A stretch of DNA of 27,853 bases. It comes from a virus. The notes beneath the pieces were generated by a model. It saw nothing but the letters and a program-made list of their open reading frames with translations. It was not told the origin of the DNA and did no database searches. Shown here piece after piece: positions 7,223 through 16,449 of the stretch; the stretch's first letter is position 1, and each line of letters starts with the position of its first letter. A program made the position numbers and the translations under genes. The stretch covers positions 1 through 27,853 of the IMG/VR virus record IMGVR_UViG_3300030118_003401, one strand, 5' to 3'.

Positions 7223-7840
7223 TTAACCTCTTACATCCTCTGTTGCTATTGGTGTTTCAAGAACTTCAACAACTTTTATTTTTTGTATCCATTGTATTGT
7301 ACATTGTCTTTCAAATTTGTCAAAGTCTTCTGCTTGTTCTAAAAGTTCTTTTTTAATTTTACTGTTTGTAAAATCAGGATTAGACCAATTTTTTAATGGT
7401 GTTCTTCTTACTCCCACTTGATGGCCTATCTTTAATCTTCCATCTACACCTACCCATTCAAATGTATCATTTTCAGCAATTAAACAATCTAATACTATTG
7501 TATAATTATTACCTCCTGTTGATATTTCTATAGAATTACCATTTAAATATTTCTCTTTTATAGCAATTTTTTTAAGTGTAATAGTTAATTCTCTATCTAC
7601 TGTAAGTTTATCTGCAGAATCTTCAGGTATATCAGATTCATAAACTGGCAAACCATCATGTGTATATCCTACAATACCATCGTTTGCCATATCAATATTT
7701 GCTTTTTGCTTTGCATAATTTTCTTTATGATCATCTGCAAATGCTACAACATTCAATAATGCTATGCCTAAAATAAAAACACTTAGCATCGCCCATGGAG
7801 AAAAAAATATTTTTTCTCTTAATGTAATTTTCTTTTTCAT
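7223..7840 (-). CDS. Membrane-anchored or secreted unknown protein, 205 aa
   Basis: A basic start (MKKKITLREK) is followed by a hydrophobic segment at about residues 15-34 ending in AFADDHK, which could be a signal peptide cleaved after AFA or a single membrane anchor. The rest (about 170 residues) is soluble and beta-like. It has a GGAGAATAT ribosome site and follows queE by nine bases. The product probably faces the periplasm. No family recognised. Confidence 0.75.
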   Translation of the reverse strand: MKKKITLREKIFFSPWAMLSVFILGIALLNVVAFADDHKENYAKQKANIDMANDGIVGYTHDGLPVYESDIPEDSADKLTVDRELTITLKKIAIKEKYLNGNSIEISTGGNNYTIVLDCLIAENDTFEWVGVDGRLKIGHQVGVRRTPLKNWSNPDFTNSKIKKELLEQAEDFDKFERQCTIQWIQKIKVVEVLETPIATEDVRG

Positions 7841-7849
7841 ATATTCTCC

Positions 7850-8737
7850 TTATTTTCCGATTGCATTGCCGTATATATGTACATGTACTCTACTTGTATA
7901 GTAGTAGCCACGTCTAATGGCTTCGTCGGCAATCGAGGCCTCAGTTTGTACAAGTCCCTCAAATGTTCCACCTACTCCCATAATCCATACAGGAAAGTTG
8001 CAACCGGCGTCACGGAACATTCTAGTATTTTCTTCAACCTCTCTCCAACTTTCGTCTGTGCCATTAACAACAAACTTTAGTTGTCCATGTGGACTAACTT
8101 CTGCGTATCTTCCTATAACTTCAGGCTTTATTGCTTTTTTAGATTGCTCACCAGCAGTTGCCCATAATTTAGGAGATAAACTCCAATACCATTCTCTAGT
8201 ACCATCATATGTAAACCATGCAATATAATCTGCTAGTTCTTGTGTAATAGGTCTAGTACCATTAGTTTCTATAGTCACATAGTTAGGCATATTTTCCCTT
8301 TTCTGGAACTCTTCTAATACTCCCATCATTGCTGGTTGTGTATTTTTAAGCATAGGCTCTCCGCCTGTAAATACCATGTGAGTTTCTTGTCCTGTATCTG
8401 GGTGTATAAACTTACCTCTAGGCAATAGAGCAGTAAGTTCATCACATGCTTCTTGCACAGTTTTATCTGTTATTAAATGGCTATATTTTTTTGCCCATGT
8501 ATATGAACTATCACAACCTTTATCAAAAACAGGTAAATCAAATACATTTGTAATATCTGTAATATCTAGTTTTTCATAAGGCAATTCATATGTGCTAGGA
8601 TCTGTAGGATCTTTTTGCCCAAAACCATTACATTGTAAATTACATAGGAAAAATCTCATCCAAAGACTAGGAATACCGACATATTTGCCTTCTCCTTGTG
8701 CTGAATAAAATGTTTCGCTATATTTAACCGTTGTCAT
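7850..8737 (-). CDS. queE: QueE-like 7-carboxy-7-deazaguanine synthase with a split Cys motif
   Basis: This is a radical SAM protein of 295 residues, longer than common QueE. It has the typical start YSETFYSAQGEGKYVGIPSLW, then Cys32 and Cys36 in LCNLQC. The third cluster cysteine appears to be Cys75 in GCDSSYTW, which matches the CDSxxTW end of the usual Cx3Cx2C motif. Thirty-eight residues therefore separate the second and third cysteines instead of two. TGGEPML (124-130) is the SAM-binding GGE motif. QueE turns 6-carboxytetrahydropterin into 7-carboxy-7-deazaguanine, step three toward preQ0. FolE lies just upstream and QueD-like and DpdA-like genes lie in the next operon, which supports this role. 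Its start overlaps the upstream gene by 14 bases. Confidence 0.92.
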   Translation of the reverse strand: MTTVKYSETFYSAQGEGKYVGIPSLWMRFFLCNLQCNGFGQKDPTDPSTYELPYEKLDITDITNVFDLPVFDKGCDSSYTWAKKYSHLITDKTVQEACDELTALLPRGKFIHPDTGQETHMVFTGGEPMLKNTQPAMMGVLEEFQKRENMPNYVTIETNGTRPITQELADYIAWFTYDGTREWYWSLSPKLWATAGEQSKKAIKPEVIGRYAEVSPHGQLKFVVNGTDESWREVEENTRMFRDAGCNFPVWIMGVGGTFEGLVQTEASIADEAIRRGYYYTSRVHVHIYGNAIGK

Positions 8738-9233
8738 CTTCTTTTAAAAATTTTAAAATTGTTTCTGCCTCTATATCAGGAACTGCATTACTAATAGCAC
8801 TATTTACAATACTATGTATATCACTTACTTCCTCTAAATGGTTATTTCCACTAACTTTGTCCTCATAAGATTCAATAGCAAGTGTTCTAAAACCAATTTC
8901 ATATAAATCATTTATATCAGTAATATTTATGTTTGTATTCCTTCCCATTTGCAATACTTTTAAAAAAATTGTATCTGCAATACTTGTGGTTGTTAAAGTA
9001 ATTTCTTGATTATCAACAGACTGATTAACAACAACCAATCTATCATGTATTCCTATTGTATCATGATCTGCAACTGCATCTAAACACTCAAAAATTTCCT
9101 CCACAGAGACAGGAAATCTTTTTTGTATTACATCTACTGGATTTCTGTCTAAAATAGAATCAGTAATATTTCTTACAGGAACCTTTAATGCTCCTATAAC
9201 AAGTGTACCATTTAGATTGCTAATATTACTCAT
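8724..9233 (-). CDS. Unknown protein between folE and queE, 169 aa
   Basis: A soluble, acidic 169-residue protein with no cysteine-rich site and no SGGxDS loop, so it is not QueC. It is tightly packed between folE (1-base overlap) and queE (14-base overlap), which suggests it is made together with the deazaguanine enzymes. A link to that pathway is an inference from position only. Confidence 0.7.
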   Translation of the reverse strand: MSNISNLNGTLVIGALKVPVRNITDSILDRNPVDVIQKRFPVSVEEIFECLDAVADHDTIGIHDRLVVVNQSVDNQEITLTTTSIADTIFLKVLQMGRNTNINITDINDLYEIGFRTLAIESYEDKVSGNNHLEEVSDIHSIVNSAISNAVPDIEAETILKFLKEDDNG

Positions 9234-9922
9234 TATTTGTTACATGAAAATTCTTGTTGTAATTTAATATTATCAAAAAATTCTTTTTTAGTTGAGGCAT
9301 CGTCCATAAATCTGCCTTCTAATACTGTGGTTTGTGTTAAACTGCTATGTGCCATAACACCTCTATTCTCAACGCAACCATGTGTTGCTTGTACATAAAC
9401 ACCTACGTCATTACTGCCTGTTGCTTTCATAATCTCTCTGGCAATATCAGTAGCAAGTTCTTCCTGTAGAGTACCTCTACTAGCACACCATTGTGCTATT
9501 CTAGTATATTTAGACAAACCAATAAGTTTTGCCCCTGCAATAATGCCAATATACGCAGTTCCTTTAACTGTCTGATGATGATGCGAACACATACTAGTAA
9601 GTTCGCTTCTTACTACAAGCATTCCTTTATATGCTTCTTCTGTATCATTAGGAAATGCAGTAGCCTTAGGCATTGGTTCATATCTACCTGCCATTAGTTC
9701 ATTAATATACATTTTAGCAAGACGTCTTCCTGTATCCATGCTGTTAGGATCGTTTTCAGTATCTATAACTAAGCCTTTAAGAACATCTTCAAACTTTACT
9801 GATAGTTCTTCAATAAGTGCTTCTTTGTCTCCAGGCTCGATAAATTCACTAATATTATCTCCTGCCCAAAACTTTGCACCTGCTTCTTGTAGTCTTGCTC
9901 TTATTTCATCACTTTTGGCCAT
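9233..9922 (-). CDS. folE: GTP cyclohydrolase I
   Basis: The protein has 229 residues. MCSHHHQTVKG (111-121) holds the zinc ligand Cys112 with His114/His115. GLSKYTRIAQWCASRGTLQE (135-154) is the conserved helix segment, and HGCVENRG (181-188) supplies the other Cys/His. All are in family order and length is normal. The enzyme converts GTP to dihydroneopterin triphosphate, the first step to both folate and 7-deazaguanines. Next to queE and away from any folate genes, it almost surely feeds deazaguanine synthesis. It follows the phosphoribosyltransferase by 12 bases in the same operon, with a GGAG ribosome site. Confidence 0.95.
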   Translation of the reverse strand: MAKSDEIRARLQEAGAKFWAGDNISEFIEPGDKEALIEELSVKFEDVLKGLVIDTENDPNSMDTGRRLAKMYINELMAGRYEPMPKATAFPNDTEEAYKGMLVVRSELTSMCSHHHQTVKGTAYIGIIAGAKLIGLSKYTRIAQWCASRGTLQEELATDIAREIMKATGSNDVGVYVQATHGCVENRGVMAHSSLTQTTVLEGRFMDDASTKKEFFDNIKLQQEFSCNK

Positions 9923-9934
9923 TTAAAAGGTCTC

Positions 9935-10423
9935 CTATTTCCACCATTCTTCATATGGAAAGACTATCCATCTTTCCTGATCTGGCAAAACAATGTTTGC
10001 CGTAAATTCTACTTCATTAAACTCACTGCTTTCTTTATCAAACAAAGTTGCAAATTTAATACCCTCATGTAAAGAAAACATATTGTTATTTTCTTTGCTA
10101 TCAAAATCTTTAATTACAGATAATATACCATGTAATGTCTTACCAGAATCATTAATATCATCTACAACTAAAATGTTTTTACTAGTATATTTAGACAAAA
10201 TGTGTTTAAGAGTCTCAGAATCCTCGATTTTTCCATCTCTTGTTTGCCATCTAAATGCTTCAAAAGGCACCTCAAAGTAGTGGCTTAACATAACACCAAA
10301 AGGATATGCTCCTCTACCAGGGCCTATAATTACATCAGGTTTATAACTTTCATGTGCCATTTCTCTGGCAATGATTCTGCAGTCAGAAACCAAGTCGTTG
10401 TATGAGTAATATAATTTATTCAT
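9935..10423 (-). CDS. Phosphoribosyltransferase (type I, purine-type)
   Basis: The 162-residue protein carries the PRPP-binding motif ILVVDDINDSGKTL (84-97) and a pyrophosphate-loop candidate IIGPGRGAYPFG (32-43), both standard for type I phosphoribosyltransferases. The size fits hypoxanthine/guanine/xanthine enzymes, which make nucleotides from free bases. It heads the folE-queE operon, so it may affect the guanine pool or even act on a deazaguanine; that is inference. The early promoter at 10430-10457 puts the predicted +1 on the A of the ATG, and no Shine-Dalgarno sequence is visible, so the mRNA may be leaderless. Confidence 0.88.
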   Translation of the reverse strand: MNKLYYSYNDLVSDCRIIAREMAHESYKPDVIIGPGRGAYPFGVMLSHYFEVPFEAFRWQTRDGKIEDSETLKHILSKYTSKNILVVDDINDSGKTLHGILSVIKDFDSKENNNMFSLHEGIKFATLFDKESSEFNEVEFTANIVLPDQERWIVFPYEEWWK

Positions 10424-10429
10424 AATAAC

Positions 10430-10457
10430 AGTATAACATCATTTTACTTGATGTCAA
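10430..10457 (-). promoter_or_regulatory. Sigma70-like early promoter, ATG at predicted +1
   Basis: -35 TTGACA (10457-10452) and extended -10 TGTTATACT (box 10435-10430) are 16 bp apart. Six bases separate the -10 from the ATG at 10423, so transcription should start at the A of the start codon. This drives the phosphoribosyltransferase-folE-queE operon. Confidence 0.85.
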
Positions 10458-10458
10458 T

Positions 10459-11415
10459 TTATTTCTTAGACTGATATGCAATTTCATCAGCAACAATTTC
10501 TTCTAATGTATTTTGTGGTTCCCAACCTAACATCTCAAATGCTTTTACTATATTTGCATCTGTTCTTTCAGCATCGCCATCTCTTTTAGGACCAACTTCT
10601 ACATTAATTTCTTTTCCTAATTGTTTTTCTACTTCTGCAATAACTTGCTTTATGCTACTTCCAGAGCCGCCACCAATATTAAATATATTACTATCGCCAC
10701 CGTCCATCAAATAATTTAAAGCAGATACATGTGCAGATGCAACATCAAAAATATGAGTGTAATCTCTTATACATGTACCATCTGGTGTTTCGTAATCATC
10801 TCCATTTATTGTAAATACTTCTTCATTAAGACCAGCATCTACAAGTATAGGCACTAGATGTTGCTTAGGATTAAGTGTATAACCCAATCCTTCGTAACTA
10901 CCTGCGGCATTAAAATATCTCAAACTAGCAAAATTAAACTCATAAGCATTTGCATAGTCCTTAAGAACATTCTCAAAAATTAACTTACTTCTACCATAAG
11001 GTGTTTTAGGATTTGGAATATCGCTTTCTGCATTTAGAATAGTTTCTGAATCTCCGTAAACAGAACTTGAACTACTAAAAATAAAATGCTTTACTCCTGC
11101 ATTAATAGAATGATTTAAAAGTGATATTGAGTTTGCCACATTGTTAGCATAAGTAGAGGCAGGATCTTGTATGCTTAAAGGCACACTATGATCAGCCGCT
11201 AGATGAATAACTGCATCTGGTTTTGTTAATTCTATTACGCCTTTTAATTGATGATTATCTATATCAAAAGGATATTGTGTGACACCTTCTTGCTGTCTTT
11301 TTACCCTGTCAATATTGATAACATTATAGCCTGAATCAACAAGTAATTTACAGGTTACACTACCTATAAATCCACTACCACCAGTAACTAAAATAGTTTT
11401 TTCTTCATTATTCAT
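10459..11415 (-). CDS. GalE-like NAD-dependent sugar-nucleotide epimerase
   Basis: The protein has 318 residues. The NAD-binding TGGSGFIG (11-18), the SSSSSVYG segment (114-121) and the catalytic YGRSK (Tyr140, Lys144) identify an extended short-chain dehydrogenase close to UDP-glucose 4-epimerase. GGGSGSSIKQVIAEVE near residue 250 is also GalE-like. It would interconvert UDP-hexoses (for example glucose/galactose). It overlaps the upstream glycosyltransferase by one base (TAATG), so the pair probably makes and transfers a sugar, either to a cell-surface polymer or to phage DNA or virion. Substrate not readable by eye. Confidence 0.9.
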   Translation of the reverse strand: MNNEEKTILVTGGSGFIGSVTCKLLVDSGYNVINIDRVKRQQEGVTQYPFDIDNHQLKGVIELTKPDAVIHLAADHSVPLSIQDPASTYANNVANSISLLNHSINAGVKHFIFSSSSSVYGDSETILNAESDIPNPKTPYGRSKLIFENVLKDYANAYEFNFASLRYFNAAGSYEGLGYTLNPKQHLVPILVDAGLNEEVFTINGDDYETPDGTCIRDYTHIFDVASAHVSALNYLMDGGDSNIFNIGGGSGSSIKQVIAEVEKQLGKEINVEVGPKRDGDAERTDANIVKAFEMLGWEPQNTLEEIVADEIAYQSKK

Positions 11416-12395
11416 TATTTCTCACTAAACCAGGAATCAAATACTTGTTCACTTTCACAAACATTGACTCCGTTAAAATTAAAGTTAGTAATTGCATCTA
11501 CAGTCATATCCACACTTTCTTCAAATCTGTCAAACAGTTTAAAGTTTGGATACAACTCTGGATACACTAACCTATTAGGAAGTACAGGTGTACAACCTAA
11601 ATACACGGCTTCAGCAACACCAAAGCCAAAGTTTTCTTGTAAAGCATAACTTACGATTGCTTTACTTTTACCAAGTAAAGAATAGTATTCTTCCTTGGAA
11701 AGATTTTGTTCCTGTGTTTTTACAAACTGTACAGGAACATCTACCTTTTCAGATACTTGTTTTGCTAATTCATCAAACAACCAAGGTTGCTTTTCATCAC
11801 AAAGTCTTCCATTAAAGATAACAATATTTTCTTTTTGTTGACCTTTGTGTGAATCGAGCCCTGTGTAGTCTACAGGCAAACCTGTAACAACTAACTTGTC
11901 AGGGCTCACGATACGTTTTTTAATTATATCTTGTTTGATAAATTCACTTGCACAAAAAATTGTGTCGCTTATATCGAATATAATATCCTCAAAATTCTTT
12001 GCCCAACGTTCCATATCGCGAACAAAATCTGTATCTGTAAAACTTCCTGCATGAATTATACCTGTAATCTTTACATCAACTTTGTTAAAGTATTTCATAT
12101 AGGCAATATTTTCAATACCAGGAAACCAAATGTCACTAAAGAAAAATCTGTCGCCATCTGCAATTTCTCCTCTTTCAAACATAGCAGATATTTCTGCCAT
12201 TTGTAAGGATTTAAATTTGCTTGTAAAGGCGGCATTTAAAAATTGACCTTCAGGTAATGGAGGTGTCTCATAAGTAGGCATAATTTTAACATACTCTAAA
12301 TTACTATCCTGTAGATATTTTTCAATATCTCTGTCCATATGAACAGTATATCTACCATCAATATGTTCTAAAGGTATGTAAATTATTTTACTCAT
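11415..12395 (-). CDS. GT-B glycosyltransferase (GT4-like)
   Basis: The protein has 326 residues. The C-terminal half has a GT-B look: FNGRLCDEKQPWLFDELAKQ (nucleotide-sugar domain start), then KSKAIVSYALQENFGFGVAEAVYLG, where ENFGFGVAEA is the Ex7E motif of retaining GT4-type enzymes. The N-terminal half is Rossmann-like, without membrane segments. It is coupled to the GalE-like epimerase by a TAATG overlap. The acceptor is unknown: host surface glycan, virion protein or modified DNA are all possible. Confidence 0.85.
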   Translation of the reverse strand: MSKIIYIPLEHIDGRYTVHMDRDIEKYLQDSNLEYVKIMPTYETPPLPEGQFLNAAFTSKFKSLQMAEISAMFERGEIADGDRFFFSDIWFPGIENIAYMKYFNKVDVKITGIIHAGSFTDTDFVRDMERWAKNFEDIIFDISDTIFCASEFIKQDIIKKRIVSPDKLVVTGLPVDYTGLDSHKGQQKENIVIFNGRLCDEKQPWLFDELAKQVSEKVDVPVQFVKTQEQNLSKEEYYSLLGKSKAIVSYALQENFGFGVAEAVYLGCTPVLPNRLVYPELYPNFKLFDRFEESVDMTVDAITNFNFNGVNVCESEQVFDSWFSEK

Positions 12396-12534
12396 TTTCT
12401 TTTTCGTCTCCTAAACCTTCTCCATAATCTACAACGTGAGTTATTTCATCGTCTAGACTTTGAGCATAATCATTATTTTTATCTGCCTCTGCTTTACTAA
12501 TTTTTTTAGGCTTCTTTTTCTCTTCCTCAGTCAT
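12388..12534 (-). CDS. Small charged protein, 48 aa
   Basis: A short frame of 48 codons begins at the ATG at 12534 (TAATG overlap with the gene above) and ends by overlapping the start of the glycosyltransferase gene by 8 bases. The product begins MTEEEKKKPKK and is highly charged and probably disordered. Overlaps at both ends support it as a real gene. Function unknown. Confidence 0.6.
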   Translation of the reverse strand: MTEEEKKKPKKISKAEADKNNDYAQSLDDEITHVVDYGEGLGDEKENE

Positions 12535-12710
12535 TACATTGAGTTCTTTTTATCTTGGATTTCAGAACGTCTAACTTTTGTTAGTTTACTGATTTCCATT
12601 AATGCCTTTCTTGCTCTTGTGGCACTTGCTTTTACACCATTATTTTCGAACTTATCTTGTTCCATAATGTATTCTTCCATTAGTGCCTTAAGTTTTAAAT
12701 GTGTTTCCAT
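12534..12710 (-). CDS. Small basic histone-H1-like protein, 58 aa
   Basis: The 58 residues have a helical start and a strongly basic second half (GVKASATRARKALMEISKLT, then KVRRSE). This arginine/lysine-spaced pattern resembles the small histone-like proteins of T4-like marine phages, so DNA binding is likely. An AAAGGAG ribosome site precedes the ATG at 12710. It overlaps the 48-aa gene by one to three bases (TAATG). Family match is by eye only. Confidence 0.65.
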   Translation of the reverse strand: METHLKLKALMEEYIMEQDKFENNGVKASATRARKALMEISKLTKVRRSEIQDKKNSM

Positions 12711-12722
12711 ATCTTTCTCCTT

Positions 12723-13097
12723 TTATGGTACTTTAATGTATTCCATTTCACAGCCATTTTCATTATCCTCGGCTACTGAAATCTTTACCCAACGACCTGG
12801 ATACCTGTCCTGTATCTGTGTCGCTAAATCATCTGCGATCATTTCGCATGACTTATTATTAAGTTGTATAACATCTTCATTATACAAACTTTCAAGCCAT
12901 CTTTTAAACTGTATAAACTCAATGTCTCTGTCATCATGAAACACTTCTATCCACACTTTAAAGTGAAATATGTGTCTGTGTTTATACCCTAAAAAACTTA
13001 CATCATACTCATCTCCTGTTGCAGTAGCAGGATTTGTATCTGCACCAGGATAAAAATGTATGCCTTCTTTACTAAATGTTACCCAAATACTTCTCAT
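12723..13097 (-). CDS. QueD-like (6-pyruvoyl tetrahydropterin synthase family) protein
   Basis: The protein has 124 residues, the usual QueD size. His14 (FSKEGIHFYPGA) and His40/His42 (YKHRHIFHF) match the three zinc ligands, IEFIQFKRWLESL matches the VDFxxLK helix, and VAEDNENGCEMEY matches the KETxxxGCxY end with Glu110. QueD makes 6-carboxytetrahydropterin, the substrate of QueE, and folE and queE are in the neighbouring operon. However, the catalytic Cys that normally lies four residues before the HGH is absent, and the Asp-His segment LDHHYLN is not preserved. Either catalysis uses other residues or the protein differs. The start is the ATG at 13097 with a GGAGG site and TAATG overlap, not the TTG nine bases earlier. 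Confidence 0.72.
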   Translation of the reverse strand: MRSIWVTFSKEGIHFYPGADTNPATATGDEYDVSFLGYKHRHIFHFKVWIEVFHDDRDIEFIQFKRWLESLYNEDVIQLNNKSCEMIADDLATQIQDRYPGRWVKISVAEDNENGCEMEYIKVP

Positions 13098-13282
13098 TAT
13101 GACCAACCTCCATCGATTGTTTCCATTATTTCATTCATATGACTTAGCATTTGTGTAATAGGTTCATCATAGTCGCCTATCTCATAATCAACACTATCTT
13201 GTTCTTTAAACATAGCCTTGACTATTTCTGCATTCTCGATTAAACTTTCGAGTTCTTGTTTCATTTCATCTGATATTGCCAT
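13097..13282 (-). CDS. Small acidic helical protein, 61 aa
   Basis: A 61-residue acidic protein beginning MAISDEMKQELES. The start at 13282 is well placed: AAGGAGG lies five bases before it and it forms a TAATG overlap with the membrane protein above. It joins the QueD-like gene by another TAATG. No known family. Confidence 0.72.
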   Translation of the reverse strand: MAISDEMKQELESLIENAEIVKAMFKEQDSVDYEIGDYDEPITQMLSHMNEIMETIDGGWS

Positions 13283-13689
13283 TATGCCTCCTTGTTTGGA
13301 TTCCAAATAGTTAGATTTTTTGTTTTAAGTCTATTAGCAACAATTTTATATCTGGACTGCTCTTCCTTCCATTCCTTTAGCCATTTATGGCCATCTCTTT
13401 CTGCATCTACAAAAATAGCATTTGTAAAAGCCAAAGGAATTAAGATTGCACAATGTATTATAATACTTGCTACTGTATTATATCCAAACCATCCAAGATA
13501 ATTTGCCGCCAAAAATCCAAAAAATACACTCCACATTACAAACAATACTAACATAAAATATGTTTGTAAACTTGGATCTGGTATATATTTTAACGGATTA
13601 TATCTAACGTCCATTACTCTTCTCCAGCCATTTACAAGACCTAATATTGCCCTCCTAAATAGGCTTGGCTTCTTCATTAAAGGTTCCAT
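13282..13689 (-). CDS. Two-span inner-membrane protein, 135 aa
   Basis: Two hydrophobic helices are visible, about residues 43-65 (YFMLVLFVMWSVFFGFLAA) and 72-93 (ASIIIHCAILIPLAFTNAIF). They are flanked by basic cytosolic ends, so both termini are probably inside. It lies in the deazaguanine/gp45 operon, joined to its downstream neighbour by TAATG. A lysis or membrane-remodelling role is possible; no family is clear. Confidence 0.75.
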   Translation of the reverse strand: MEPLMKKPSLFRRAILGLVNGWRRVMDVRYNPLKYIPDPSLQTYFMLVLFVMWSVFFGFLAANYLGWFGYNTVASIIIHCAILIPLAFTNAIFVDAERDGHKWLKEWKEEQSRYKIVANRLKTKNLTIWNPNKEA

Positions 13690-13698
13690 ATTTTTCTC

Positions 13699-13803
13699 CT
13701 ATTCAATGTGATTTCTTATGTATTCTTTTACTACATGCATACCATAAGATATCCAGGTAATAAAAAAAAGACTCCATAAAATTATTTCAATACCCTCAAT
13801 CAT
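13699..13803 (-). CDS. Tiny single-span membrane protein, 34 aa
   Basis: Thirty-four codons encode one hydrophobic helix (IEIILWSLFFITWISYGM) with a basic end. It sits three bases from the gene above and ten from the one below, filling an otherwise empty gap in the operon. Small hydrophobic phage proteins often act on the host membrane; this is inference. It is real if its codons prove conserved. Confidence 0.5.
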   Translation of the reverse strand: MIEGIEIILWSLFFITWISYGMHVVKEYIRNHIE

Positions 13804-13806
13804 TAA

Positions 13807-13986
13807 CTAACCTGTTTCAGTTAATCTGTCTAACTCCTCAATGTCATGCTCACCAATAATTTCGACATCAAAGTTTCCATCTGGTGTTCTATCAACAGTA
13901 AAAGACATATCATATCCTTTACTTTCTAAAGTATCTACTTTAGCACAAAATTCATTAAATTCGCTAGTAGTTAAAGTTGCTTTCAT
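13807..13986 (-). CDS. Small protein, 59 aa
   Basis: The 59-residue frame begins with an ATGA overlap on the 43-aa gene above and ends near the 34-aa membrane gene. It has a helical start and a beta-like middle (FTVDRTPDGNFDVEIIGEHD). AAGGAG lies upstream within the previous gene's end. Function unknown. Confidence 0.65.
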   Translation of the reverse strand: MKATLTTSEFNEFCAKVDTLESKGYDMSFTVDRTPDGNFDVEIIGEHDIEELDRLTETG

Positions 13987-14114
13987 TCTGACTCCTTGTC
14001 ATTATCATCTGCTTCTTGTTCAGTAACATTATCATTATTTTGCTTTTGCTTTTTTAATATTTCAGCAATAGCACTCTCGTAACTTAATGGTTGTTCTTTT
14101 TTATCTTCTGTCAT
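13983..14114 (-). CDS. Small charged protein, 43 aa
   Basis: The 43 residues are Lys/Glu/Asn-rich and likely disordered at the C-terminus. It overlaps the next gene as ATGA and the previous one as ATGA, which supports it as a translated link in the small-gene train. Function unknown. Confidence 0.6.
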   Translation of the reverse strand: MTEDKKEQPLSYESAIAEILKKQKQNNDNVTEQEADDNDKESE

Positions 14115-14272
14115 TTTTCTGGATCTTCTAAAATATCTTGTTTCTCGTCTATTACCTTTCTCATAACGTCATGCTCTGTAGTATCACACCAATTGCAAGG
14201 CTGTCCATATGGTATTTGTGTTTCTCCAACATCTTTACAAACATGTGTCCACCATTTACCATTCTGCTTCAT
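14111..14272 (-). CDS. Small Cys/His protein, possible zinc knuckle, 53 aa
   Basis: The 53 residues include His10-x-Cys12 and, later, CNWCD (Cys27, Cys30), with a further His34. This HxC...CxxC spacing could bind one zinc ion. It overlaps its neighbours at both ends (17 and 4 bases). It is close downstream of the DpdA-like gene, but no role can be assigned. Confidence 0.62.
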   Translation of the reverse strand: MKQNGKWWTHVCKDVGETQIPYGQPCNWCDTTEHDVMRKVIDEKQDILEDPEK

Positions 14273-14444
14273 CTATAAGTTCCTGTATCTCATCAGGTAT
14301 TTCTACACCTGTTCTTTTAAGAAATACAAATAACTTAATAAAAAATTCTTCCCAATCTTCTATATCAGTAAAGTCTCCATTAAACTCAACACTTGATATT
14401 ATATTATGTTCATCCGTTCCTGTCAACTTATATTTTACTGCCAT
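14256..14444 (-). CDS. Small protein, 62 aa
   Basis: A 62-residue acidic protein (MAVKYKLTGTDEHN start, then an EFNGDFTDIEDWEEFFIKLF helix). It overlaps the 53-aa gene and touches the 158-aa gene by one base (TAATG). No family recognised. Confidence 0.65.
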   Translation of the reverse strand: MAVKYKLTGTDEHNIISSVEFNGDFTDIEDWEEFFIKLFVFLKRTGVEIPDEIQELIDEAEW

Positions 14445-14920
14445 TATATTATCTCCGCCCTATTAGTATATTTTATGTAGGGCTCAAAATAACTTTTTCT
14501 AGTCATTTTTTCTATAGACTCTGAAAATATGCCATCATTAGAAAATGTTAAATACTTGTCGTTTACTTTGTAACAAGTATTTTCATTATATTCTGCTAAA
14601 TCAGGAATAATAAAACTTAAAATTGGAATAAAGTTATTACTGTTATTGCATTCCATATTAATAATATCTGGGCAATAATTAGGAGTAAATTCTAAAGATA
14701 TATATAAATCTTTTACTGCTAATAAATCTTTTAAAAGATCTGCCCATAAATTATATTGATTTCTATTACTTGGATTAAAATTTGTAAAATGAATATGATG
14801 TACTTTATTGTTTAATGCTCGTGCTAATATTTCTTCTTTAGGTTGCCAGCCATGTACAAACAAAGTTTCTTCACCTTTCATAATTGTGTTATCAACTTCG
14901 CGACCTAAACTAAAAATCAT
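14444..14920 (-). CDS. Unknown protein coupled to the DpdA-like gene, 158 aa
   Basis: The 158 residues overlap the end of the transglycosylase gene by four bases (ATGA), so the two are likely made together. Aromatic and His residues recur early (HGW, HHIHFTNFNP), followed by a strand-like DLYISLEFTPNYCPDI. I recognise no family. It could be a partner or modifying enzyme for the inserted base, but the only evidence is position. Confidence 0.7.
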   Translation of the reverse strand: MIFSLGREVDNTIMKGEETLFVHGWQPKEEILARALNNKVHHIHFTNFNPSNRNQYNLWADLLKDLLAVKDLYISLEFTPNYCPDIINMECNNSNNFIPILSFIIPDLAEYNENTCYKVNDKYLTFSNDGIFSESIEKMTRKSYFEPYIKYTNRAEII

Positions 14921-16449
14921 GCCTCAAAATCTCCTGACATAATTTCATGTGTCATTGCATTTACATCGTCATCTTGATCAAATTCTTCTTCTTCAAAAAA
15001 TGCTCCAAATCCTGCATTTGTTTTTGCACCAAAACTCATTTCATCTAATAGTTTAACATTTTCTTCTATTAGTTCATATGGATTAGGACAAGCAGGATCT
15101 AATACTTCCTGGCAAAAACTATCAAAGTACAATGCATTTGCAGGAACATAAGGACTAAATTCATTACTTTTACCAGACTTTTTATCATTTATATAATCTG
15201 TATAATGTATATTAGTTCTATATTTTTCTACATCTGCTAATCTGTTTGCTTCTTGTACCGCAGTTATATGATTATACACACTATGAGCCATATAATATAG
15301 ATATGTTTGTGTGTCCCAACTTGTAGATGTTGCACTCTTGGCCTTTCCATTTTTATCTAGATCTCCTTCTGCCATGGCACATATATCGCCTACTGTAAGT
15401 CTTTCCATTATAGGAGAATGTGCAAACGGCATAGGCAACTTAGAGCCTTTTAATTGTTGATTGTCTATTGCTCTGTCCATTAAGTAACTAAACTTTTTAG
15501 GATGAAAACTATTATGTGTATATGTGCTACCATATGCACTATTAACAAACGGACTGGCGGCATCCATACTTAAACATATATCTGGACTGTCATGCTTTCT
15601 TAACATTCTTTGTATGCTAGTTAAGTAACAGGCCCAATTAAGTTTACCTGTACCCAAGAAATGTATCCAACCTTTGCCTTCCAACAATCCATCTTCTCTG
15701 AGTTTAAGTATTCTTCTAAGGGCCATTCTCATATTACGTTTTTGTAAATCAGCAAATGCGTATCCTTCTAATGCAAGTTCGCTATTGCCATATGCTTCTT
15801 TACAAAATTTAGGGTCACTAAAATGTTTTACTTTTTCATACCACTCATCACAAGTAGGCTCATCAACTCCACTCATTACATTTAAGAACTTACACTTACC
15901 TGGTGTTCTGTTCTTCATGTAATAGTCCAAGTTATACAAACTAATTTGCATAGTTTGTTCAAAAGTTTCTAATCCTGTTTTTTTATTGAAAGGAGGGAAG
16001 GCCGCAAAAGGAGGAACATCTAATGTCATTGCCCAATCGCATTGTTCCTCTTCCCATTTAAGAATTTTATTTACAAGTTTTTCCCTTTCAGGATCATTTG
16101 GATTAATAGCATTTGCCCAATCCATTTTAATAACACCAGTTGCAATCTGGAAACCGCCTGAGTCTCCAAGTATAAGTGTTTTACTTCTATCTCTATCTGT
16201 AATCATAGGCTCGCCATCAAGTTTGTCTAAATCCAACTGAGCATGACCGGCAGAGTATAACCCCCAAGGATAGTAATAGTAAGTGTCTTTATCTTTTAGG
16301 AAATCCATACCTTCATGACCTAATTCAAGTCCTTCAGGTATTCTAGGTGCTCCTTCTTTTTGTAATTTTTCTAACTGCTTTACATAAAAACTACTAATAG
16401 CAGGTAAAAATATTGCATAGTCCCTTTGTGTTTTTCCTAAATCTTTCAT
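14917..16449 (-). CDS. dpdA: DpdA-like DNA 7-deazaguanine transglycosylase
   Basis: The protein has 510 residues of the tRNA-guanine transglycosylase (TGT) superfamily. GDSGGFQ (95-101) matches the TGT substrate-binding loop with Asp96. ALEGYAFAD (226-234) corresponds to the GGLaxGE segment. HFLGTG (263-268) is followed by ICLSMDAASPF (291-301), where Asp296 is the likely nucleophile. The usual TGT zinc set CxCxxC...H is not apparent. Bacterial and phage DpdA enzymes of this type exchange guanine in DNA for a 7-deazaguanine such as preQ0, and phages carry them with folE, queD and queE. All three relatives lie within 7 kb. It follows a small gene by four-base overlap and is in the operon headed by gp45. 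Confidence 0.85.
   Translation of the reverse strand: MKDLGKTQRDYAIFLPAISSFYVKQLEKLQKEGAPRIPEGLELGHEGMDFLKDKDTYYYYPWGLYSAGHAQLDLDKLDGEPMITDRDRSKTLILGDSGGFQIATGVIKMDWANAINPNDPEREKLVNKILKWEEEQCDWAMTLDVPPFAAFPPFNKKTGLETFEQTMQISLYNLDYYMKNRTPGKCKFLNVMSGVDEPTCDEWYEKVKHFSDPKFCKEAYGNSELALEGYAFADLQKRNMRMALRRILKLREDGLLEGKGWIHFLGTGKLNWACYLTSIQRMLRKHDSPDICLSMDAASPFVNSAYGSTYTHNSFHPKKFSYLMDRAIDNQQLKGSKLPMPFAHSPIMERLTVGDICAMAEGDLDKNGKAKSATSTSWDTQTYLYYMAHSVYNHITAVQEANRLADVEKYRTNIHYTDYINDKKSGKSNEFSPYVPANALYFDSFCQEVLDPACPNPYELIEENVKLLDEMSFGAKTNAGFGAFFEEEEFDQDDDVNAMTHEIMSGDFEA

Follow-up and report, generated by a model that had tools for sequence, protein, structure and literature searches.

How does a phage use a 7-deazaguanine pathway that appears to stop one step short? 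This question is raised by a gene block on the IMG/VR virus record IMGVR_UViG_3300030118_003401, a phage fragment that we analyzed over its complete length (27,853 bases; hereafter the window). A preliminary description of the window had reported FolE, a QueD-like protein, QueE, and a DpdA-like transglycosylase, split across two operons and lacking QueC, the enzyme that converts 7-carboxy-7-deazaguanine (CDG) to its cyano counterpart (preQ0). We found that the QueD-like protein is a paralog without the catalytic residues of QueD, and that it is linked near-obligately to a GT4-type glycosyltransferase, which the preliminary description had missed and which we regard as the strongest clue to the function of the block. 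We propose that the block probably directs a post-replicative DNA hypermodification, in which a glycosylated 7-deazaguanine replaces guanine without passing through preQ0.

All genes from position 16449 down to 7850 are encoded on the minus strand, and the middle of the block, previously taken as a gap between two operons, is occupied by the glycosyltransferase, the epimerase GalE, and a phosphoribosyltransferase, which are part of a conserved neighborhood. We therefore treat the genes as a single co-directional block. Promoter and terminator scans stayed near shuffled expectation and do not fix operon limits, and PADLOC returned no match. The block comprises the following genes:

14917..16449, minus strand: DpdA-like DNA guanine transglycosylase of the tRNA-guanine transglycosylase (TGT) superfamily, 510 aa (hhalign chain and conserved Asp)
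14444..14920, minus strand: accessory protein recurrent in the set, overlapping the dpdA stop (193/234 DpdA loci)
12723..13097, minus strand: QueD paralog, phrog_17812 (AlphaFold model, Foldseek, residue alignment)
12534..12710, minus strand: small conserved open reading frame (58 aa) separating the QueD paralog from the glycosyltransferase (identity of 63-100% in most of the window's relatives, both close and distant)
11415..12395, minus strand: GT4-type glycosyltransferase with a GT-B fold (AlphaFold model, Foldseek, residues)
10459..11415, minus strand: UDP-glucose 4-epimerase GalE (NCBIfam TIGR01179)
9935..10423, minus strand: purine-type phosphoribosyltransferase (Pfam Pribosyltran, 5e-17)
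9233..9922, minus strand: FolE, GTP cyclohydrolase I (Pfam GTP_cyclohydroI, 2e-37)
8724..9233, minus strand: gene between folE and queE, overlapping queE (conserved in close relatives only)
7850..8737, minus strand: QueE, 7-carboxy-7-deazaguanine synthase, radical SAM (phrog_2076, 1e-50; cysteine motif)

As a stand-in for the remainder of the phage genome we used a 250,519-base contig, G001 (also L014), which matches most of the window's length at 93-96% identity (G001 positions 185,197-212,431). G001 also belongs to a sample of 14 long contigs (138-344 kb) that all carry the gene set. Among annotated cultured phages, the PA5oct group of Pseudomonas jumbo phages comes nearest in gene content and order.

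The assignment of the 12723-13097 product as QueD did not survive closer comparison. Its AlphaFold model (predicted local distance difference test, pLDDT, 94.9) has E. coli QueD as top Foldseek matches, and in a profile alignment to PH0634, a homologue of 6-pyruvoyl-tetrahydropterin synthase, H14 and H40-x-H42 coincide with the zinc-type histidines, and E110 with the glutamate conserved near the C-terminus. The T-fold and its three zinc histidines are present; the catalytic Cys of QueD is replaced by Leu in 227 of 227 paralog sequences, and the Asp-His dyad is absent. Across the same sequences there is little or no variation at H14, L36, H40, R41, H42, F44, R57, E60, S83-C84-E85, E110, D111, and E113, and H54 is kept in 96%, giving the signature HRHxF...HxxR..E...SCE...EDxE; clustering the first 158 paralogs at 50% identity gave 14 groups. 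R57 and the SCE motif are candidate contacts to the carboxylate and base of CDG. A real QueD is encoded beside the paralog in phages phiST, RHph_I1_18, ACP17, BUCT-ZZ01, PA5oct, Phosso, X1, and Bakedbeans, that is, in most complete paralog phages, which excludes a simple replacement of QueD there. This co-occurrence and the lost catalytic residues together rule out canonical QueD for the window protein. Nine of the 14 long contigs also carry a real QueD; none was found in G001, and its 6-carboxy-tetrahydropterin would therefore come from the host or from the absent part of the genome. In Vibrio phage Bakedbeans, the paralog is fused to an additional N-terminal region and makes up the C-terminal part of a longer protein (L008:7215-8366, 383 aa). 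A 2023 study by Cui et al. reportedly described deoxy-7-deazaguanine (dDG) and its 7-carboxy form (dCDG) as phage bases and proposed a CDG decarboxylase, DpdL; phrog_17812 is perhaps DpdL.

The glycosyltransferase is modeled with a GT-B fold (pLDDT 91.9), and its nearest Foldseek matches are the GT4 enzymes GlgM, BshA, and MshA. R197, K202, and E262 are invariant in 218 sequences, and E254 is Glu or Asp, preserving the EX7E site (E254-x7-E262); no NCBIfam sequence family matches this phage family. A search of IMG/VR with the glycosyltransferase family alone yielded at least 486 confirmed relatives, and among the best 79 loci of these, all 79 contained deazaguanine genes and 78 the QueD paralog. 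The reciprocal search with the paralog gave the same picture: the glycosyltransferase is present in 213 of 221 distinct paralog loci (duplicates removed), at a median gap of 238 bases, and the two genes lie on one strand in all loci examined. Of the eight loci without it, six are cut off by a contig edge less than 900 bases from the paralog and L301 has a third DpdA-like type, which leaves L304 as the one exception with no evident reason. The 213 loci include many related contigs and are not 213 independent events; the independence of the pairing is indicated by the cultured phages PA5oct, Phosso, ACP17, X1, and BUCT-ZZ01, which differ in gene order and use two DpdA types, and in which the two genes nonetheless stay near each other. 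Cyanophage BUCT-ZZ01 (L010:5373-6716) and a Shimia contig (L233:12257-13453) seem, by eye, to have a second glycosyltransferase-like protein in common, which suggests a two-sugar decoration in some versions.

The linkage is also seen in bacterial genomes. Among 85,000 species genomes of bacteria and archaea we found 17 relatives of the glycosyltransferase, all of which adjoin dpdA, the paralog, or folE. Magnetospirillum has the order glycosyltransferase, paralog, dpdA, queD, with an integrase-like gene close by, and in Shimia and Sulfitobacter the reading frames of the glycosyltransferase and dpdA overlap, with the paralog elsewhere in the same genome. Bacterial contigs on which the glycosyltransferase, in some cases the paralog, and DpdA occur together come from Magnetospirillum (L238-L241, L243), Shimia (L233), Sulfitobacter (L236), and Azospirillum (L230); L241 and L233 encode a similar XerD-like integrase of ~190 aa nearby, plus two-component genes, and L241 also a protein with a CoiA nuclease domain. 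Judging by gene content, these contigs are apparent integrative elements with the same modification set.

The absence of QueC from the window, as originally reported, was borne out, and it extends well beyond the window. No QueC was found in G001 or in any fetched glycosyltransferase or QueD-paralog locus, and no full-length QueC among the 14 long contigs, in which the scans returned 4 partial PP-loop matches. The suggestion that QueC lies elsewhere in the genome is thus disfavored. In ten complete genomes of paralog phages, eight had no QueC match, X1 had a sub-threshold match and D479 a partial one, none being a full-length canonical QueC. The X1 match was rejected, since its sequence reads as an NAD-synthetase-like PP-loop protein; the D479 match is to a PP-loop protein resembling QueC, which KVP40 has in addition to a separate, strong QueC, so that the status of D479 is ambiguous. 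KVP40 and K566, which lack the QueD paralog, both carry a strong QueC. QueF was not found in G001, and a QueF match in Bakedbeans was discarded as sub-threshold and within the FolE gene. On these sequence comparisons, the prediction of a QueC-less phage 7-deazaguanine DNA-modification set is well supported.

One might instead suppose that the host supplies QueC, and that the phage inserts preQ0 or a derivative as known phages do, with the paralog and the glycosyltransferase as accessories. Most queuosine-making hosts do have QueC, and G001 seems to depend on its host for QueD too. This explanation is at odds with the phage genomes just described, in which full-length canonical QueC is missing from all ten paralog genomes (D479 being ambiguous) and all 14 long contigs, and present in the paralog-free KVP40 and K566. 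Moreover, FolE, QueD, and QueE are encoded by most of the paralog phages themselves, so the omission of QueC alone looks like a choice of pathway. We therefore consider a host-supplied QueC quite improbable. Of the options raised in the preliminary description, the insertion of an earlier product is favored over supply by the host because the loss of QueC goes with the QueD paralog.

The remaining three enzymes of the preliminary description were confirmed. FolE, in addition to its Pfam match, has an NCBIfam match (2e-41) under that family's strict cut-off. QueE is recognized by its PHROG match and by its C32-x3-C36-x38-C75 (CX3CX38C) and TGG motifs; Pfam radical SAM matches only under its cut-off, and the NCBIfam QueE models match weakly (best 2e-9). 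Elsewhere in G001, the QueE radical-SAM profile weakly matches five further places (170030-176473 and 236950-237255), of which four lie close together. The DpdA-like protein alone has no Pfam, PHROG, or NCBIfam match, and a Pfam scan of every member of its alignment found nothing. Its 139-sequence profile matches a family from ACP17, X1, and BUCT-ZZ01 (hhalign 96%), which in turn matches E. coli Tgt (hhalign 90%), the DSGGFQ motif and the nucleophile Asp being aligned. D96 (in DSGGFQ), D144 (LDVP), and the nucleophile D296 (SMDAASPF), whose loss had been named beforehand as evidence against the reading, are conserved in 100% of 182 sequences. Comparison of the other DpdA-like families with the DpdA of phage 9g by hhalign was uninformative.

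The sequences show the gene content, the folds, intact predicted active sites, the lack of QueC, and the pairing of glycosyltransferase and paralog; from these we infer the following route, including its substrates, the order of its steps, the sugar and where it is attached, DNA as the target, and every reaction after QueE. FolE would start from GTP, and a QueD gene outside the block, or the host, would supply the 6-carboxy-tetrahydropterin from which QueE would produce CDG. The QueD paralog may then convert or present CDG, possibly decarboxylating it to 7-deazaguanine, and the DpdA-like enzyme would swap the resulting base into DNA. The GT4 glycosyltransferase would add a sugar, before or after insertion, drawing its donor from a GalE-balanced pool of UDP-glucose and UDP-galactose. 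The phosphoribosyltransferase may recycle the guanine released by DpdA.

Several observations weigh against this proposal. Complete genomes of five phages (Ahp1, D479, phiST, RHph_I1_18, and Bakedbeans) combine the paralog with a third DpdA-like type and contain, genome-wide, no glycosyltransferase of this family, showing that the two genes can be separated. Neither GalE, although frequent, nor the phosphoribosyltransferase (46/79 and 46/80 loci) is universal. Contigs L094-L104, except L098, have the paralog, the glycosyltransferase, FolE, and mostly QueE, and none of the three transglycosylase families was detected on them; perhaps they have a further DpdA type, or DpdA lies beyond the fetched stretch. 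The direct hhalign comparison of the DpdA-like protein with Tgt is weak (20%, with the same DSGGFQ aligned); the connection runs through the intermediate family. Finally, if the paralog only decarboxylates CDG, there is no heteroatom at C7 for O-glycosylation by a GT4 enzyme, and either the reaction of the paralog or the attachment site has been misjudged; the sugar may be attached to the carboxylate, to a carbon, or at another site.

The five phages without the glycosyltransferase, like the absence of QueC, fit a rival explanation, in which plain dDG or dCDG is inserted and CDG is decarboxylated by the paralog, while the glycosyltransferase has a different target, such as another base, a protein, or a glycan of the envelope. 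It is harder to reconcile with the near-obligate pairing of glycosyltransferase and paralog across unrelated phages and bacterial elements, or with the overlap of the glycosyltransferase and dpdA where other cluster genes are not adjacent, and we regard it as rather unlikely. The weak direct match to Tgt bears on another explanation, that the target is not DNA, and that the genes remodel tRNA or make a free glycosylated deazaguanine metabolite. TGT-superfamily enzymes do work on tRNA in cells, and the GT4 enzymes BshA and MshA make small glycosides. Yet the DpdA-like protein is far from cellular Tgt, and the known phage Tgt relatives in such clusters act on DNA (PMC6884629); we hold a target other than DNA to be very improbable. 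A glycosylated deazaguanine in DNA remains our preferred explanation.

The other genes of the block differ in how widely they are shared. The preliminary description had singled out 14444-14920 and 8724-9233 as genes of unknown role tightly coupled to the set. This holds for the former, which recurs at most DpdA loci, is found in ACP17 beside another DpdA type, and has invariant T/L/F, D, N, G, W, and Y positions in its family alignment; the latter is confined to close relatives of the window. GalE (304.8 bits against a TIGR01179 cut-off of 262.3) probably supplies the sugar donor, judging from its family. The phosphoribosyltransferase has weak NCBIfam matches to orotate, hypoxanthine, and xanthine phosphoribosyltransferase models. 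The gene adjoining queE (7223-7840) is only 45% identical to its G001 counterpart, compared with 93-99% for most neighbors, and we read it as locally replaced or fast-evolving.

We also considered glycosyltransferases of Xanthomonas phage PhiXhv-12 and Erwinia phage Ep032 as members of the same set, and rejected them because they belong to a distinct arrangement that includes Gat-QueC and a PIG-L deacetylase. In PhiXhv-12 (L227:6735-10821), Gat-QueC adjoins a PIG-L de-N-acetylase, a GT4-like glycosyltransferase, and a Gfo/Idh-type oxidoreductase, a protein with GNAT acetyltransferase domains is encoded nearby, and QueE is found elsewhere in the genome; similar glycosyltransferase matches occur in PhiXhv-15/16 and Ep032. 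By analogy, the trio of glycosyltransferase, deacetylase, and GNAT protein resembles mycothiol synthesis, which hints at an aminosugar on archaeosine.

How far the preferred explanation extends is less certain. It is about an even chance, in our judgment, that hundreds of jumbo and T4-like phages and alphaproteobacterial integrative elements carry a sugar-linked 7-deazaguanine in their DNA, a new chemical class of hypermodification whose QueC-less synthesis relies on a QueD fold put to a new use and on a GT4 glycosyltransferase dedicated to DNA bases. We found no description of a glycosylated deazaguanine or guanine analogue in DNA in the literature searched, which excludes most subscription papers and Cui et al. 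2023, and a sugar-bearing deazaguanine is possibly a new chemical class of DNA base. If true, our hypothesis would explain why the preQ0 pathway ends one step early in so many phages, suggest what phrog_17812 and a large, so far unnamed family of glycosyltransferases do, and predict strong phage resistance to restriction enzymes and nucleases. The hypothesis is directly testable, given that the cultured phages PA5oct, Paride, ACP17, BUCT-ZZ01, and Phosso carry the same gene set.

The closest functional precedent for a sugar on phage DNA is T4, in which a GT-B glycosyltransferase of the phage adds a sugar to hydroxymethylcytosine and thereby confers nuclease resistance. The block differs from T4 in its base, in the transferase family (GT4-like here), and in that its base would be installed by a transglycosylase. 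BshA, MshA, and GlgM share the fold and EX7E site of the phage glycosyltransferase, and their acceptors are small molecules. Phage deazaguanine DNA made with QueC, Gat-QueC, or QueF is established for systems of the 9g, CAjan, and nt-1 type (Hutinet et al., 2019; PMC6884629). The block resembles these in FolE, QueE, and a TGT-superfamily DNA transglycosylase, and departs from them in having none of the three finishing steps, a QueD paralog without the catalytic residues, and an added glycosyltransferase and GalE. Phages of the subtype with deoxy-preQ0 and deoxyarchaeosine (dPreQ0/dG+) encode QueC or Gat-QueC, whereas neither accompanies the block in the window, in G001, or, at full length, in the long relatives. 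Phages reported to have dDG or dCDG share with the block a QueC-less route from CDG, and one of them, phiST, has a paralog of the same family, phrog_17812; its DpdA-like protein is of a different type, and it lacks a glycosyltransferase of the family described here. For PA5oct, a system for deazaguanine synthesis and incorporation was noted by Iyer et al. (2021; PMC7824862), and the portions of that article that were searched link no glycosyltransferase to it. PA5oct nevertheless has the same genes for the DpdA-like protein, glycosyltransferase, paralog, phosphoribosyltransferase, and QueE, in the same neighborhood as the block described here.

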